A stretch of DNA of 64,000 nucleotides. Source: Gamsiella multidivaricata. Taxonomy: Eukaryota; Mortierellomycota; Mortierellomycetes; Mortierellales; Mortierellaceae. A program made the position numbers and the translations under genes. The stretch spans positions 1-64,000 of the forward strand of contig NW_026251718.1 of NCBI RefSeq assembly GCF_025024155.1. Reading direction: 5' to 3'. Below, piece by piece: positions 20,344-31,452 of this stretch. The first letter of the stretch is position 1; each line of letters starts with the position of its first letter. The notes under the pieces were generated by a model. That model searched no databases. It was not told the origin of the DNA and was given only the letters and a program-made list of their open reading frames with translations.

Positions 20344-22265
20344 ATGGCCAAACTCAAGCTCTTTTGTCTAGTCGAGGGTGAATCCACGTCGAGAGCCTTT
20401 CCGCTGTCTGTTCCTTCGACACAAACAGTCGGTGACCTCAAGAAGCTCATCAAGACCGAGAAAACCATTGCCTTCAGCGACGTCGATGCAGGCAGGATCA
20501 CGCTCTGGCTCGTCACGATTCCCAATGATGCTGAGGAGGTTCCCATCAGGCTCGACACCCTGAATGAGAAGAAGAAGCTGCGCCCGACTAGCGTTCTCTC
20601 AAAAGTGTTTAGTGAGGGGACACCAAAGAACACAATCCACATCATCGTTCAGCGACCGCCACCAAGTAAGGCTTTCACGCTCACTTTGCAGTCGTGCCTG
20701 GACTTACTCGCTGTGTTGTGCTGAAAACTGAGCCTTGACAACGATTGGAAACGCCACTAAATGAAAGTCTCTTTTCCCACTATTTCTACTTGTGTGTCCG
20801 ATGTAATAGTCCCGAAAAAGACATCTCGGCAATCAAGGCTAGACAACCCGCGATGATCGAAACATCTTGTTTTACTATATACCCTTGGGTCATGCCGCGC
20901 CCTGGTTCGTCACACTCACATCCACTTCTTTCCTTCGTGATCTAGATCCCTCTTTATCTGCGCCTTCCCCTGGCTCTCCTGTGATCCACTCCTCTTGTAA
21001 GCGTATGATCGGGGTTTGGTGCTGACTTGCTGTGATTCCATCTACATCATTTATCTGCGCTTACAAAACCACAACTGGCGGCTTGCTTTGCTTGTACCTC
21101 ATCCAACTTATTAGCGCCCCCTCTCAAGAAGACCCATATTAACAGGGGTACTCTGACGAATGCGATTGAGAGCGCTGGTCTTATGGACAAGGCTTTAATG
21201 GATGGCCTGTATGACCTTTCTCGCCTTGACCAGAAAGAAAAGGTATCGCTGCTTATGTTCCTTGGTCAACCGATTGACGGAAACGATCCATTCGATTCAT
21301 TGCTGCAGGCTGCTCGTATATATCGAAATACCAACGAACAAGAATTGGACACAATATCATCACCTTCCGGCACTCGGTTTCCTGTGGTCGACACTGAGGG
21401 TCTTTACGTCAGACACGCCTACAAAGATCTTTGTGACAAAGTCGCCTCGACGTTCACAGACAGTCCCGATACAACATATCAGAATCGCATCGTCGTCGCC
21501 GGCACACCTGGGATCGGCAAGTCGGCGTTCCTGTTATACTTTACTATCCGACTTCTTGCTGCAAGCAATGACGACAATCCTCCTCTTGTCGTTTTCCACA
21601 CCCAAGAGGGTTCGGACTGCTATGTCTATGGAGGGATCTCCACTGTACGTCAAGGGAAAATCGACGATTTTCGTCTCCTCCTGGACCTCCCCGAAACCTG
21701 GTATCTGATCGACAGCTCTCCTAATCCAGCACTCGTACAAGCCAAGACCATTATATCGGCATCGCCACAGATTCTCTGTCCCGACAGTGGCCGATATCAA
21801 GATGTTTTGAAGGAGACGCCACAGCTACATTACATGGCGCCCTGGGAGTTCGATGAGTTGGAAACATGCCGGGTCTGTGTCAGGAGCTTCAATGTGGTCG
21901 GCCAGGACTTGATGAAGAGGCTTTACTTTAAGATAGGGGGTGTGCCGAGATATGTTCTGCACTCTCCGGCGAATACCTTGGGTCGAGACCGGAACGATTT
22001 TGCTGGTGCCGAGTCGAAAGCATTGTATCGGGTCCAGCTGGCCCTCAATAATGCCAAGGGTCCGTTAACACTTCTACAATACTTGGCTCAAAAAGGAGAA
22101 TCCTTGGAGTTCAGTAGCCATCTGCTCCACCGCTGGCCTACGAACGATCACGCAGATTACCACCTGCGATGGGCCACAAATTATATCAAAATGGAACTTG
22201 TCGAGGGTTTGGGCGACGAATCATGGATTGTCTTATTGAAGGCCATGCAAATGGGCTTGATGTAG
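20344..22265 (+). CDS. Crinkler (CRN) family protein 1 with P-loop NTPase body
   Basis: Proposed exons are 20344-20665, 20946-20996 and 21115-22265, 507 aa; both introns follow the GT..AG rule and keep frame. Residues 1-107 are a ubiquitin-like Crinkler header starting LKLFCLVEGESTSRAF and ending IHIIVQRPPP, the fungal counterpart of the LFLAK..HVLV header of oomycete CRNs. A Pro/Ser linker follows, then a body with Walker A GTPGIGKS at about 254-261 and a Walker B-like WYLID. Fungal CRN proteins act as secreted or intracellular effectors or in self/non-self conflict; which applies here is unknown. No signal peptide is visible. The frame stops at 22263-22265, but similar coding sequence continues in another frame to 22513 (listed separately), so the C-terminus may have been cut by a frameshift. 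Confidence 0.8.
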
Positions 22266-23156: not shown

Positions 23157-26084
23157 ATGGCCAACCTCAAGCTCTTTTGTCTAGTCGAGGGTGAATCCAC
23201 GTCGAGAGCCTTTCCGCTGTCTGTTCCTTCGACACAAACAGTCGGTGACCTCAAGAAGCTCATCAAGACCGAGAAAACCATTGCCTTCAACGACGTCGAT
23301 GCAGACGGGATCACGCTCTGGCTCGTCACGGTTCCCGATGATACTGATGAGGTTCCCATCAGGCTCGACTCCTTGAATGAGAAGAAGAAGCTGCGCCCGA
23401 CTAGCGATCTCTCGGAAGTGTTTAGTGAGGGAGCACCAAAGAATACAATCCACATTATTGTACAACGGCCGCCGCCAGGTACTACATCAACCGCTGGCAC
23501 CTAGACTCCTCTAGAAGGCTCGTTTGTTCTCTGCGTTGCACTGTACTAAATCTTGCGCGCCACTTTCTCCTTCTCATACGCTTCTCTGTTACCTAGCTAC
23601 TTCTATCAACGTTCCGGACCATCTATTGCAGAGATCTCGTCCCGCTTCTCCGCTTTTTGGCCTCGATGTGTCTGGTGAGCTCGATATCTATGCACATTAC
23701 CCCGCACTTCAATAGACATAGCCTGTTTTGGTATCTCTTTTAAACTTTTCAAAATAGTTGCATTGGCCACGATCGCGAGTAGATTTTTTAGGCCCGGATC
23801 CGAACACGCCAAGTTCCTGAAAGAGTTTGTGATGGGCTCACACACTTTGCCTGTAACGCGAGGTGGGGTGCCGGGTTTACCAAGAGTTGGGAAGCGGGGA
23901 CAGGTGACGGTTCGAGAGGCTCCGACGCTATTGTTTTTCGACTTGCCAGGCCCTGAACATTCCAGCACACCCATTAGTGGTGCGGAAGAAATTCTGACCA
24001 AGTATCCATGGGTGCGTCACCTGCCTCTTTTTGGAGTCAGCGGATGCGGCAAAACACGGACAACTTTGGAACTACTGTCGAGAACATGGGGGCTCTACTT
24101 CAACGCCGGTGAAAAGGACCTTGGTTCGAACGACGTGCGCGCCATTATCCACGCACTATCGGACCGTCCAAATATCTATTTAACGGATAGCAAGGAACAA
24201 AATACTGACAGAGTGCGATATTTGACCTTTGGCCTCCTGTATACGCGGCTTTTGATCCTGGACTACTGTTTGGGTATCCCCGAAAGTAACACCTCGTTCA
24301 CGTGCCAGAGATGGATGCTCCTGCAAGCTGCCACGCCTGCTTTCCAGGATGTGTTCGAGAGCTTGTTCCAGGATATCAGCCTAGTGTTCCACAATCGCGG
24401 TTCATCGAATCTCAACATTATCGACCTCGTACAAGACTTATACGACAAAGTGCAGAAGCAACTTATTGGACGGGCAGCTTTTCCAGCCCACTTCAAATTT
24501 CTCCTGGTTTTGGACGAGGCGCAAGTGCTAAGTAGGCTCGCCGATGGTGCGTTTCTCGACAGCGACCGCAAAACCAGTCGGCCAGTTCTGGCGCCAATGC
24601 TCCACGCATTCCGGCGAGTTGCAAAGATGCAGGACGAGGACAAGGTTTGCGTCATACCTTGCGGAACGGGCTTGAGCTATTATGAGCTGGAATGGTCCGG
24701 TGGCTCTTCATCAGGTGCCAAACTCTCGGCAGACGAATTTCAGGCGGCAAAAGATGCTAGTATCGTCGTGGACTTTGCCGGTTGGACCAACGTGGATTCG
24801 GTTTCATCTTATCTCGGGCGATTGGGCCAAGCACTAGATGTTGAGGCGAGAACACGACTAGCCGATCTGTTTCCAGACGATGTTATCAAGAGGCTCTTTC
24901 GTGACTTCCGCGGTCGATTCCGCCCCATTGTGTCCATTATCGAGGACATTATCATGAAGAACGATCCAACAACGTGGAGAGAGAGCGTCGACGAATTCAT
25001 GTACCGCTTGACGACGGCAGATGTTTCCACCAACGTTGTCGAGAAGGAGCTCTTCCACGGTAACCTGTGTTCCGAATTGAGTCGCGTGCTGAACCGGGTG
25101 AAGGCCGAGCCGATGACGTTTGCCCGGTTCCAAAGCGTTGAATTGACATTGAGGGTTGCCACAGCCGCATTCAACACACAAGGCGGGTTCATGGCATACA
25201 AAGGGGAGCTCCCTGAGTTGGTGGAAATCGCGTTTGGCCGAATCCGACGATACAATGGGGAACGATACACGGTGATCGACGAGCCATTCGTGTTCCGAGC
25301 AGCAAACAATTATTTTCGGAAGACGGATCCAGGATACTTTCAGCATCAAGCCGATCTATTGGCGACATGCACCAGTGAGGCAAAGCGTGGGGAGTACTGG
25401 GAATGCATAGTGCCGACGAATCTGGAAGGGATATTCCACAACAAGGTCATTTCAAGGGACCTGTTCAACGGCGCTGAGCCCCCTCATGGGATGTTCCAAC
25501 GCCGGGCAGAGATTGTTGGACGGACGACTGCGATGCAGACGACCTGCCACGAGACCATGACTCTAACAGATTTTCTGGATGCCCACTTTTACCATGACTC
25601 TGAGCACAAGGGGGATCCCGTACCGCCTTTCTTCTTTCCCAAGGCTCATGAGTCAGGCCCCGATATTGCTTTTGTCGTCCGATTCAGGGATGCGGCTGCG
25701 GATAAGACGGACATCACCTGCCCAGTGTTTGTTCAGCTGAAGCTTCGCGCCGAACTTGGCCGGTCCGATGCAGAAAAAGCCCGTGAGACGGTCCAGCCAA
25801 CAAAGATCAACAACCATGGTATCGACCTCGGCAAGTATTGCAAGCCCCACAAACACTACATTAGCCCTATTGTCTCATATCCTGCAGAGGTCGCCAAGTA
25901 TTTCAAAAACGAGCCTCTCATTATGAAACACGGCGAGGACGACTTCGAGATTCCATTAACAATCGACAACAACAACATACGCCAGCTATTCGCAAAGGAA
26001 TACGTCGCAGTGCTGAATCAAGTCAAACGACTGGGAGGCGAGATGACGGCTAACTTAAACCGTGTCAAACGTGCCAGGATTTAG
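23157..26084 (+). CDS. Crinkler (CRN) family protein 2 with STAND-like NTPase and degenerate nuclease-like C-terminus
   Basis: Proposed exons are 23157-23478, 23597-23674 and 23758-26084, 908 aa. The header (residues 1-107) is almost the same as in Crinkler 1, and exon 1 has the same length (322 nt) and phase. The body is unrelated to Crinkler 1 apart from being an NTPase: Walker A GVSGCGKT at about 226-233, Walker B FLLVLDEAQ at about 381-389. Near the end GPDIAFVVRF followed by CPVFVQLKL resembles a PD-(D/E)xK nuclease core with Gln in place of the acidic residue (about D769, Q793, K795). This header-NTPase-nuclease order is known for Crinklers. No signal peptide was seen. The terminal codons are altered by a foldback element: the stop TAG at 26082-26084 is made at the insertion junction. 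Confidence 0.85.
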
Positions 26085-28550: not shown

Positions 28551-29093
28551 TTGGTAACTGAGTGGTACTCCTGTTGCACGTATCCTGTAGAGTACCTGAA
28601 TCCTCTCAATCCTCCAGGTATGCCTCCCTATGAGTTGCTGCTGAAGATGGGCCAGCCCATCATTCTCCTTCGAAACATGGACGGGAAATCCGGCCTCTGC
28701 AATGGTACCCGTCTGATTGTCCGAGCACTCCATCGGAGATACATCAGTGCCGAGGTTCTTAACGGTGACTTCAGGAGACGAACGGTGCTTATTCCACGCA
28801 TACCTCTCACGACCCTGGATGACGCATCTACGCCAATCAAGTCCACTAGGCGCCGGTCTCCTGTCAAGCCTGCGTTTGCCATGACCATTAATAAGGCGCA
28901 AGGACAAACACTTGACCACGTTGGTGTTTACCTTCCTCAGCACGTCTTTGGTGCAGGGCAGCTGCATGTCAGCTTCTCGCGTTACAAACATCGAGATAAC
29001 CTCAAGGCTCTGGTCGAAAATGGCGCCATAATGGAAGGGAGGGGGTTTATATCCGAAATATCGCCTGTAGAAATCTGCTGAACGAGCAATAAA
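28551..29093 (+). pseudogene. Helitron helicase (PIF1-like) C-terminal fragment
   Basis: The frame carries YPVEYLNPLNPPGMPPYELL, GQPIILLRNMDGKSGLCNGT, FAMTINKAQGQT and QLHVSFSR, the last PIF1-type helicase motifs of Helitron replicases. The N-terminal Rep and the first helicase motifs are absent, so this is a 5'-truncated piece. A shift at about 29037 takes the annotated frame away from the natural end; the next frame reads VYIRNIACRNLLNEQ and stops at about 29093. A terminal CTRR with hairpin could not be defined with confidence. Confidence 0.85.
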
Positions 29094-29598
29094 TCTACAG
29101 TAGATTCAGAGTTGGTAATCATATATGCAATAGGCATTCCTAAACAGATATGTGGACGTGTGTACGGGAGGGTTTCCAGGTGGCTCGTCCTCGATAGGCC
29201 TCAGAGATTCAACAGTCTTATCAGCCTATTCTCATTCATAATCTGTTGAAGGGAGAAAAGAAAGCAGCAACAGAGACACAGACAGATAGATAAAAAAAAG
29301 TGCCGAGAGAGCAAGAGAGATTTAGAAGCAGACTCTTAGGGCATGTTACACAGCATGAAAAGCTGAGTACTGTAGTCAGGTTCCTGGCGATCGTATGTGA
29401 GAATCCCCCTGCTTAATGTCAATTTCCTTTTGAGCTTAAGGATCTGTGCGTCTTTTGCATTTACACTTTTTTTTCTCTGGCTTGCCAGATCTTTCCTGTT
29501 CATACACTCTCACGCTCCTTCACTTTTCCCACACTCTCATCTTCCTTCATTGTCATTGTTCGAAAAAGTTTCCATATCTTCTTATCGCGTAGACAACC
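29094..29598. other. gene-free stretch upstream of the PIN-RuvC relic
   Basis: An A/G-rich stretch lies at about 29257-29330. The last 100 bases before the relic are CT-rich (CACTCTCACGCTCCTTCAC) and end GACAACC directly before the expected start, the same layout as the Crinkler leaders. This is probably the relic's old promoter. Confidence 0.5.
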
Positions 29599-30621
29599 AT
29601 AGGCATTGAGGGCCTGTGGCCCTTTATACGGAAGAAAGAGCACGAACCTGTTTCTTCGCCATCAGTCTTCCCGCTTGTTGAACCTCCCAACTCTTTTGAC
29701 CACAATTCGATGATTCGAGTCGACATCCTTGGATCGTTTTATGTCACCGTCCGCTACACCTACTCCTCATACCCCATGGAGGATGCTCACTGCGCTATTG
29801 AGCGAGAAGTACGGAAGCTTGGGACCCAGGCGAACCTGGTTCTTTACCTGGATGGCGGCTCCTCAGAAGAAAAGAGACCCGCTCAAGTGCACCAGCTTTG
29901 CGAGTCATGTTACGGAGCTCGGGATAGTAAAGGGACAACTCGATGGGTTTTACAACGGCAACAACCATTTCAAGAAGCACAAGCGGGATGCAGGAAGGGC
30001 CAGAGATGCAGAGTAAAGACTCATAACGGATCGCCTACTCAAGTTGGTTGGCGGGTCGATCGGCGGAAAGAGGGATGAAGCTAACAAGATGGTTATTGGA
30101 GTCGGTTTGGGCAAGTTTTCAACCAAGACGAGACTTTTCTCGCTACATGGATCTTTCCAGTCATACTTTGTTCAATAGGTAAGGGTACTATCACTAAAGA
30201 TTCCATGTCGTGTAAAATCGTTTTGTATATTTTGCTGACTTCGTCTTGGTGTCACATAGGCGGCTACATCATGGTTGGTGTAAATGAATACTCTACGTCC
30301 AAGAAGTGCCCGACATACGAGAAGTTTGTCGGGCAGGTCGAGATCCGTAGGCTGTACTGCTCGACCTGCAAGTCTTAAATGCACCGCGATATCATGACGG
30401 GACACAACATTGCCAATGCGATTCGTGGTCATTTGGTCAATCAACAACGACCTCTCTACCTTCAACCGGTGGATAAAAATAAGCACTACCCTTGGATGCA
30501 GAATGCAAGATTGCATACAGAAGCCGTTAGCAGCAACATCAGCAGGAGCAGCGGCAGAAGTAGCGCGGTGGAGCCAGGGCAAGGGCGAGTTGGTGGTGGA
30601 CGTGCCAAACAGTTTAGCTAG
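29599..30621 (+). pseudogene. internally deleted PIN (FEN1/XPG-like)-RuvC gene, TnpB/Fanzor-like
   Basis: The 5' part reads GIEGLWPFIRKKEHEP and then DILGSFYVTVRYTY and NLVLYLDG, like the N-terminus of a FEN1/XPG-type nuclease, but the start codon is ATA (29599-29601) instead of ATG. At about 29880 the frame shifts and the sequence jumps to a far C-terminal region: QLDGFYNGNNHFKKHKRDAG, MVIGVGLGKFSTKTRLFSL, then after a GTAAGG..ATAG intron (about 30179-30258) VGVNEYSTSKKCPT, RRLYCSTC and MHRDIMTGHNIANAI. This end matches the RuvC and zinc-ribbon pattern of TnpB/Fanzor nucleases (NEY..TSKxC, CxxC, HRD). Damage: lost start, deletion of most of the middle, TAA near 30018, TAA before MHRD (30376-30378), and one zinc cysteine changed to Tyr (CPTY). 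The Fanzor relation is inference from motifs. Confidence 0.7.
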
Positions 30622-30826
30622 TCTAGCTTTATTTTCATTTGTGTGTTAGTTAGCAAGCACACTTTTAGTTTAGAGGTGGCACGTCCTGGCGGGAAGAGCG
30701 TCTTCGGTGACGTATTTTCGGCAAGAAACGAGCTAGCTACTTTCTATTCATCAAACCATCGGATCCACCCTCTCGCCTCCTTTCACCAACACTCTTTCCT
30801 TTACTCGCCATATTCAACAGACAACC
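30622..30826. other. promoter region of the complex I subunit gene
   Basis: 205 bp between the end of the PIN-RuvC relic and the next start. It marks the right border of the accessory island. CTCACC/CCTTTCACC-rich near the start codon; no specific site recognised. Confidence 0.4.
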
Positions 30827-31452
30827 ATGGGTGGATACTTGACTCCCGATCCCGCCATTGAAAAGTGGGTCCGCATGCGCGAGTCGACCGCGCCTTACTT
30901 CCGCTGGAGCGCACGTAATGTCCGTTCCGTCGCCCTCCTCGGACTCGTGATCCCTGCCGGAATCTTGTTCGTTGCTGAAAAATACGATGTAAGCTGGCCC
31001 CCAACCTGCATCTCCCGAGGCAACATCAACAATACTCATTCACGGACTGGTAGCTCAGGATAACATCAGGAGGTTTCAACTATCTTTCACGGAGCTACCG
31101 ATTTGGTTTTGGAAACAAGACTATCTATCTCAGGTGGAGGCATACTTCAAAAGTTCGTCGTTGTACCATCAGGATGTCGACCGATGCAACTATCGGGAAG
31201 ATAGTTTTACATGGTGCTAAAAACGATTATAGGAATTCAACGGATATTATGCAGGATGACCAGTGGCACCAATGATTGGTACAGCGGCGTAGGGGTATCT
31301 AGCTCAAGGAAAAAAGACATTGAGACATCATATATTCGACTAACACGCTTGATGTTCTTGGCTTGCCTATCTTGACATACTAGCGCCAGTTCCAATGGGC
31401 TGCTAAGGGTCCCTCACCCAAGGCCCCTGCCGAGAAGGAGGAGGATGCTTAG
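30827..31452 (+). CDS. mitochondrial complex I accessory subunit, NDUFB4-like
   Basis: Two exons, 30827-30988 and 31384-31452, encode 76 aa. The intron (GTAAGC..CTAG, 395 bp) joins FVAEKYD to RQFQWAAKGP. The pattern DPAIEKWVRMRESTAPYFRWSARNVR, cut here as DPAIEKWVRMRE and YFRWSARNVR, followed by one hydrophobic segment (VALLGLVIPAGILFVA) and a short polar tail fits the B15/NDUFB4 subunit of NADH:ubiquinone oxidoreductase, a small single-span protein of the membrane arm. The charged C-terminus (EKEEDA) is unremarkable. The protein is too short for certainty; another small inner-membrane protein is possible. Confidence 0.7.

Follow-up and report, generated by a model that had tools for sequence, protein, structure and literature searches.

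The stretch of DNA analysed here (the window) comprises 64,000 nucleotides of Gamsiella multidivaricata (contig NW_026251718.1, positions 1 to 64,000, forward strand), and at positions 29599 to 30621 it carries a relic that a preliminary description had read as a FEN1-like PIN N-terminus joined to a C-terminus of TnpB/Fanzor type. Frame 1 from 29599 reads I(ATA)-GIEGLWPFIRKK and continues to VLYLDG (29839), after which the reading frame is lost. The middle is readable in frame 2 as FYNGNNHFKKHKRDAGRARDAE, a stop, RLITDRLLKLVGGSIGG and, further on, MVIGVGLGKF; the C-terminal end, again in frame 1, shows NEYSTSKKC, GVNEYSTSKKCPTY and YCSTCKS followed by a stop and MHRDIMTGHNIANAI, with MHRDIMTGHNI after the premature TAA (Table 1). 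The presence of both ends in one relic was confirmed by this reading, by the zinc-ribbon profile PF07282 (C2:30262-30411, E 4.9e-5) and by a PIN probe from another copy (C2:29716-29874, E 1.5e-6). These two matches and that of a second copy put the relic beyond chance resemblance. The second copy, L027 (C2:390024-391425), matches 29375-30749 at 85% and has the same deletion. Among the best 40 of 91 candidates of the nucleotide search this deletion was found at that one other place, a further seven places show the two blocks separated by 1.1-3.0 kb and the remaining ones a single block; since such searches of the genome scored the best candidates, copy counts are lower bounds. Most of the middle is indeed lost, as had been proposed: undeleted relatives contain a further 2.3 kb (L034) or 2.9 kb (L033) at the junction, and one zinc Cys is likewise replaced by Tyr. 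The reported loss of the ATG holds in comparison with L034 and L035 but is not specific to the relic; L027 and the undeleted L033 have ATA as well, so that loss of the ATG and the deletion are not necessarily linked. With RuvC-I, most of the PIN domain with its acidic residues and the ATG gone, we regard the protein of the window copy as non-functional.

Table 1. Features of the relic in the window (positions are those of the window)
Feature	Position	Strand	Basis or remark
Relic element	29375..30749	+	Stretch in common with L027 (85%); right edge taken as the element right end, left edge a homology limit only
ATA at start position	29599..29601	+	ATG in L034, L035; ATA in L027 and undeleted L033
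N-terminal PIN (FEN1/Rad2-like) block	29599..29893	+	GIEGLWPFIRKK, Asp of IRVD, VLYLDG
Deletion junction, 3-bp ACC microhomology	29891..29893	+	Comparison with undeleted relatives
Remnant of exon stretch between RuvC-I and RuvC-II	29894..30178	+	Homology to L027, L033, L034; FYNGNN..., LLKLVGGSIG, VIGVGLGKF in frame 2, contains a stop
Presumed intron 4 (GTAAGG...CATAG)	30179..30259	+	Position of phase-0 intron 4 in longer copies
TNB/zinc-ribbon exon	30262..30621	+	Sequence reading and PF07282; stop 30619-30621
Alternative Glu	30286-30288	+	Within TNB exon
Zinc Cys kept	30307-30309	+	Within TNB exon
Zinc Cys changed to Tyr	30316-30318	+	Within TNB exon
Premature TAA	30376-30378	+	Within TNB exon
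RuvC-III Asp	30388-30390	+	Within TNB exon
Right end with GGTGACGTA (30706-30714)	30690..30749	+	Cross-subfamily comparison

The genome (37.5 Mb, 180 contigs) gave 109 matches to PF07282, and a probe spanning residues 1-87 of a single PIN copy gave 44 rows at 43 loci (contig C166 gives two). Of these PIN rows, 24 are followed by a zinc-ribbon match on their own strand at a distance of up to 8 kb; in two the match precedes the PIN on that strand, and in five it lies on the opposite one. The distance between the two matches was 2.19-3.65 kb in 21 of the 24 paired rows, 1.7 kb in one and 0.39 kb in the window relic and L027, a spacing pattern which indicates that the PIN and zinc-ribbon ends belong to one gene. 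Query exons were cut from L019 (e1 and e1b for the PIN, e2, e3, e3b and e3c for the linker, e4 for RuvC and e5 for TNB), and their order is kept in L009, L010, L012-L015, L018, L019 itself and L029-L032, some of these copies having one missing exon, gaps or frameshifts. When frame-keeping GT-AG introns were sought in eight copies, solutions of shared phase were obtained for intron 1 (phase 1) in five, intron 2 (phase 2) in six, intron 3 (phase 0) in seven and intron 4 (phase 0) in six.

Three protein searches returned 39 distinct proteins, every one of them (39/39) from genera of Mortierellaceae; as two of these searches scored the best 7995 candidates by shared words, absence outside the family is weak evidence. 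Records of 1174-1358 amino acids with both halves were found in Gryganskiella, Entomortierella, Haplosporangium, Linnemannia, Podila, Benniella and Mortierella, and in two records PF00867 (XPG_I) and PF07282 are annotated together. An origin of the two ends from different proteins is ruled against by the paired spacing, the exon order, the introns and these full-length records, and the proposal that both ends come from one gene therefore stands: the longer and full-length homologues carry both in one gene. One further record, P0031 of Entomortierella parvispora, is a NACHT protein in which 13% of the query is matched at 61% identity; it represents either the fusion of a transposon fragment with a NACHT gene or an error of the gene model.

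Conservation was read from an alignment (A4) of 34 of the 36 proteins then known, many of them partial, with P0031 and P0032 left out. The seven PIN active-site acids are present at D35 (27/29), D78 (32/32), E163 (32/32), D165 (32/32), D182 (32/33), D184 (33/33) and D232 (30/32); they were matched to FEN1 positions by motif order, under a FEN1 numbering that we partly assume. K85 and R92 are invariant (11/11), and their spacing with D78 equals that of D86, K93 and R100 in FEN1, D86 and R100 being named in PDB titles. The RuvC triad expected in relatives is present in all rows with a letter there (D877 20/20, E1063 14/14, D1097 14/14), and the four zinc Cys columns show 14/14, 12/14, 14/14 and 13/14. 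All ten catalytic columns are covered in eleven rows, nine of which keep all ten residues. Concerning Pfam profiles of the PIN half, none of the six genome matches of PF00752 (XPG_N) fell at a PIN-probe location and the PIN half gave no XPG_N score above cut-off; XPG_I exceeded its cut-off of 24.9 in the L019 exon (25.0) and in P0008 (28.1) and stayed below it in P0013, P0006, P0033, P0034 and the L018 piece. The ratio of nonsynonymous to synonymous substitution rates (dN/dS) between subfamilies was 0.10-0.20 with dS of at least 1.2 in the pairs that could be computed (5/21 for PIN, 13/21 for RuvC), the remaining pairs being saturated in dS; within subfamilies it was 0.16-0.77, with one PIN pair at 1.6.

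Modelling of a full-length homologue, as the preliminary description had advised, yielded a predicted Rad2-family PIN fold and a predicted Fanzor-body fold that aligns with SpuFz1 over 474 residues, joined by a linker (about 300-445) mostly of low confidence. Yoon et al. (2023, PMC10711439) characterise Fanzors by two fingerprints, the motif DPG at RuvC-I and a Glu located six residues ahead of the zinc finger. The alternative Glu is found as E1063 in 14/14 rows, and also in L044-L046 and the window relic. In the window clade none of the 20 rows with letters at RuvC-I has DPG (DLG 6, DAG 6, DGG 8), the Pro having been lost from the motif in our reading. DPG is found, however, in other PIN-fused lineages, namely P0032 and P0037 of Mortierella alpina and, in the Gamsiella genome itself, L044 and L045 (GIDPGEV) and L046 (GVDPGEV); P0038 and P0039, relatives of P0032/P0037, have DLG and GLG in its place. 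As DPG occurs in these divergent PIN-fused lineages, the fusion is probably old within the family. Probes derived from L045 located 13 PIN loci at 79-100% identity, 12 of them with a RuvC part downstream on the same strand. L044, L045 and L046 (C24:63500-68700) represent further, very divergent PIN-Fanzor lineages in the same genome; the L045 stretches that were read contain no stop and no frameshift, and one PIN acid is Asn. The group to which the window copy belongs is in our view best described as a PIN-fused family derived from Fanzors, and not as a typical Fanzor1.

The genomic setting is that of a transposon. In the five subfamilies compared, the right ends are sharp, the flanks differ and GGTGACGT, or a sequence close to it, begins 33-44 nt inside the right end. 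Upstream lies a divergent gene in which MDSTHK, MVD, ESWHK and SWIM-like CxH motifs were read by eye; MDSTH, MVD, ESWHK and the SWIM-like motif we take to be signs of a transposase. A 63-residue probe of this transposase-like gene gave 24 rows (contig C122 gives two), which were compared with all 44 PIN rows and with 10 of the 109 zinc-ribbon matches, picked by contig: 18 adjoin the PIN-Fanzor family, 11 being divergent to a PIN match and seven more to a zinc-ribbon match only. The element at C122:217495-225234 (7740 bp) is flanked on either side by GCTTGGATG, apparently a 9-bp target-site duplication (TSD), and has short, imperfect terminal inverted repeats (TIR); with 30 left positions, a 9-mer match of this kind would arise by chance with a probability of about 1e-4. 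By its sequence this element fits a Mutator-like element. For the L012 group no left-end TIR was found, only a ACGTCACC-like motif, and a left TIR near window position 29255 was discarded because its 14-bp match was judged to be about chance level.

Right ends are constant, left ends are variable and the zinc-ribbon matches (109) exceed the PIN-probe rows (44); in this comparison the PIN probe is the less conserved of the two. Retrotransposon-like 5' truncation would produce fixed right and variable left ends, but in view of the element with TSD and TIR a DNA transposon, some of whose copies carry deletions, is the likelier source. Rejecting truncation leaves the excess of zinc-ribbon matches unaccounted for; deletion, one-ended transposition and unequal probe reach are candidate causes. 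A link to telomeres was also rejected: three of four copies lay near contig ends, no TTAGGG or CCCTAA was present in the stretches and the assembly probably broke at repeats. The near-identical copies on C111, C33 and C62 (L036, L038, L039) lie at distances of 1.5-2.5 kb from the ends of their contigs, where no telomere repeats are present, and this young subfamily probably breaks the assembly. One scan of viral contigs found no relative of the PIN-Fanzor and confirmed no viral carrier.

In TnpB-type systems the omega RNA originates from the right end of the element. Folding of the terminal 60 nt at the right end surpasses that of shuffled sequences (z <= -1.9) in 14 of 19 copies, which all belong to three of the five subfamilies; the same value was reached by 4 of 49 flank windows of 60 nt. 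The left end of L019, used as a control, has no hairpin, and its right end likewise has none at 60 nt. The right-end hairpins fit an omega-RNA-like scaffold and do not prove it. A non-coding RNA past the 3' end, which the preliminary description had proposed to look for, has a candidate in three subfamilies but not in the others, where the hairpin is absent or weak at 60 nt.

We conclude that the relic almost certainly derives from a DNA transposon family of Mortierellaceae that encodes one PIN-Fanzor protein of about 1,150-1,360 amino acids. With the same high confidence, the predicted protein would consist of an N-terminal Rad2-family PIN nuclease (FEN1/EXO1/XPG-like), a linker and a Fanzor-type RuvC with TNB. 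Taken as a whole, identity and mechanism together, the best explanation has in our estimate a probability of about 0.6. For the mechanism we infer RNA guidance, cleavage, resection and homing. The Fanzor half would be loaded with RNA from the right end of the element and would cut either the empty site that transposition leaves behind or an allele that lacks the element. Enzymes of the Rad2 family remove 5' flaps or resect 5' ends, and the fused flap/5'-exonuclease would do so here, exposing 3' ends; the trimmed ends would steer repair to recombination, and the element would be copied back. This sequence of guided cut, end trimming and copy-back is tentative and somewhat short of probable. That a eukaryotic RNA-guided nuclease carries its own flap/5'-exonuclease, uniting cut and resection in one polypeptide by which the element is copied back, we regard as possible and rather doubtful.

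Several observations weigh against this explanation. The protein records and exon joins are predictions; most intron gaps had several solutions, from which those common to copies were chosen, and no GT-AG solution was found for intron 4 in L014 and L010 or for intron 1 in L029. Longer copies do exist elsewhere in the genome, as had been anticipated, but each long clade-1 copy read through has at least one stop or frameshift. The RuvC part of the predicted model has middling values of the predicted local distance difference test (pLDDT), and the model of P0038 (mean pLDDT 60.6) had no Fanzor among the 50 matches listed. A TSD was seen in one element only; it was not found for the window relic, L027 and L010 by script, for L015 by eye, or for L012. 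The Pfam MULE profile scores weakly on the transposase-like gene (12.8 bits against a cut-off of 27.6, E 0.17), and a genome scan with PF10551 gave eight matches, none of them this gene. A ACGTCACC-like motif (complement GGTGACGT) also occurs at one presumed left end, so the motif may serve the transposase. As to the hairpins, z -1.9 was reached at 100 nt by 13/19 copies and at 150 nt by only 6/19, the 60-nt hairpin is absent or weak in L019/L015/L009, L027 and the window copy, and copies within a subfamily are not independent.

Among the alternatives, a real PIN-Fanzor fusion could act without RNA guidance as an accessory nuclease of the transposon, its zinc-ribbon/RuvC body binding the element ends and its PIN trimming flaps that arise in excision or insertion. 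That GGTGACGT-like motifs occur close to the right ends and also close to one presumed left end would suit such a role, as would the adjoining transposase-like gene (18/24 probe rows); we consider it unlikely in view of the alignment with SpuFz1, which extends beyond the catalytic core, of the hairpins that end at the right end in three subfamilies and of the low dN/dS in both halves where computable. The fused PIN could instead act on RNA, in guide-precursor processing or RNA removal, rather than on DNA ends. RNase activity is common among PIN domains outside the Rad2 family, FEN1-type enzymes also cleave flaps that contain RNA, and our data are compatible with either substrate; the fold and arch residues are nevertheless those of a Rad2-type structure-specific DNA nuclease, which makes this quite improbable. 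That gene models misjoined two neighbouring genes, one PIN and one Fanzor, and that a deletion joined them in the relic draws on the predicted nature of the exon joins and on the three intron gaps without a solution, but is highly implausible given the order and spacing repeated in many copies, the intron phases common to copies, the complete gene models from several genera and the order shared by additional divergent lineages. The PIN-plus-Fanzor interpretation of the preliminary description is accordingly supported, with the qualifications that the exon joins are predicted, that RNA guidance is inferred and that the window clade lacks the DPG fingerprint.

In the surroundings of the relic, the C-terminal part of a Pif1-type helicase (PF21530, E 6.4e-17) lies at 28551-29081 (+), about 300 bp upstream. 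It is possibly the end of a putative Helitron, and this element may have cut away the left part of the relic. A small host gene like NDUFB4 starts at 30827 (+; PF07225, 17.5 bits, below the cut-off of 21); its ATG is 78 bp beyond the right end of the relic, which thus occupies the upstream region of this gene. Two very similar Crinkler N-terminal domains (PF20147) are located at 20344-20721 and 23157-23501 (+; E 1.1e-26 and 3.9e-28).

To our knowledge, why transposons carry Fanzors is regarded as an open question, and an intact-looking Rad2-type active site fused to a Fanzor makes the idea of recombination-based retention directly testable. The PIN-Fanzor would also provide a naturally occurring guided enzyme into which end processing is built; if the explanation is true, a natural "guided cut plus resection" enzyme has diversified into several lineages within one fungal family. 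The results suggest that Fanzor diversity in Mortierellaceae may be under-read, because introns break the genes, Pfam detects them mainly by their zinc ribbon, and scores of the PIN half lie close to or below Pfam cut-offs. No description of a Fanzor fused to a Rad2-type nuclease was found in the literature searched, most subscription papers being outside reach. According to PMC10432273, Fanzor cuts DNA under RNA guidance, with an omega RNA that derives from the Fanzor locus itself. Compared with Fanzor1 proteins (SpuFz1, PpFz1, GtFz1), for which the available parts of PMC10432273 and PMC11423790 mention no PIN-type fusion, the family described here has a Rad2 nuclease of about 300 residues and a linker fused at the N-terminus, and DLG/DAG/DGG at RuvC-I in the window clade. 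Fanzor1 has been found in MuDR-type elements of Rhizopus, Phycomyces and Mucor that reportedly encode no MuDR transposase (Bao and Jurka 2013, PMC3627910, available text). Our family resembles those elements in the association of Fanzor1 with Mutator-like elements, the 9-bp TSDs and hosts from the same broad group of fungi, and differs from them in the transposase-like gene and the fused PIN, which that part of the text does not mention. The nearest wording is "Fanzor flap endonuclease homologs (Fendons)" in large DNA viruses, a single sentence concerning viral contigs (PMC11071296); it brings Fanzor and flap endonuclease together, and the available text describes no fused protein, fungus or transposon. 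FEN1, EXO1 and XPG/Rad2, finally, are separate host repair proteins, whereas the Rad2-like nuclease described here forms the N-terminus of a transposon-borne, Fanzor-type protein.
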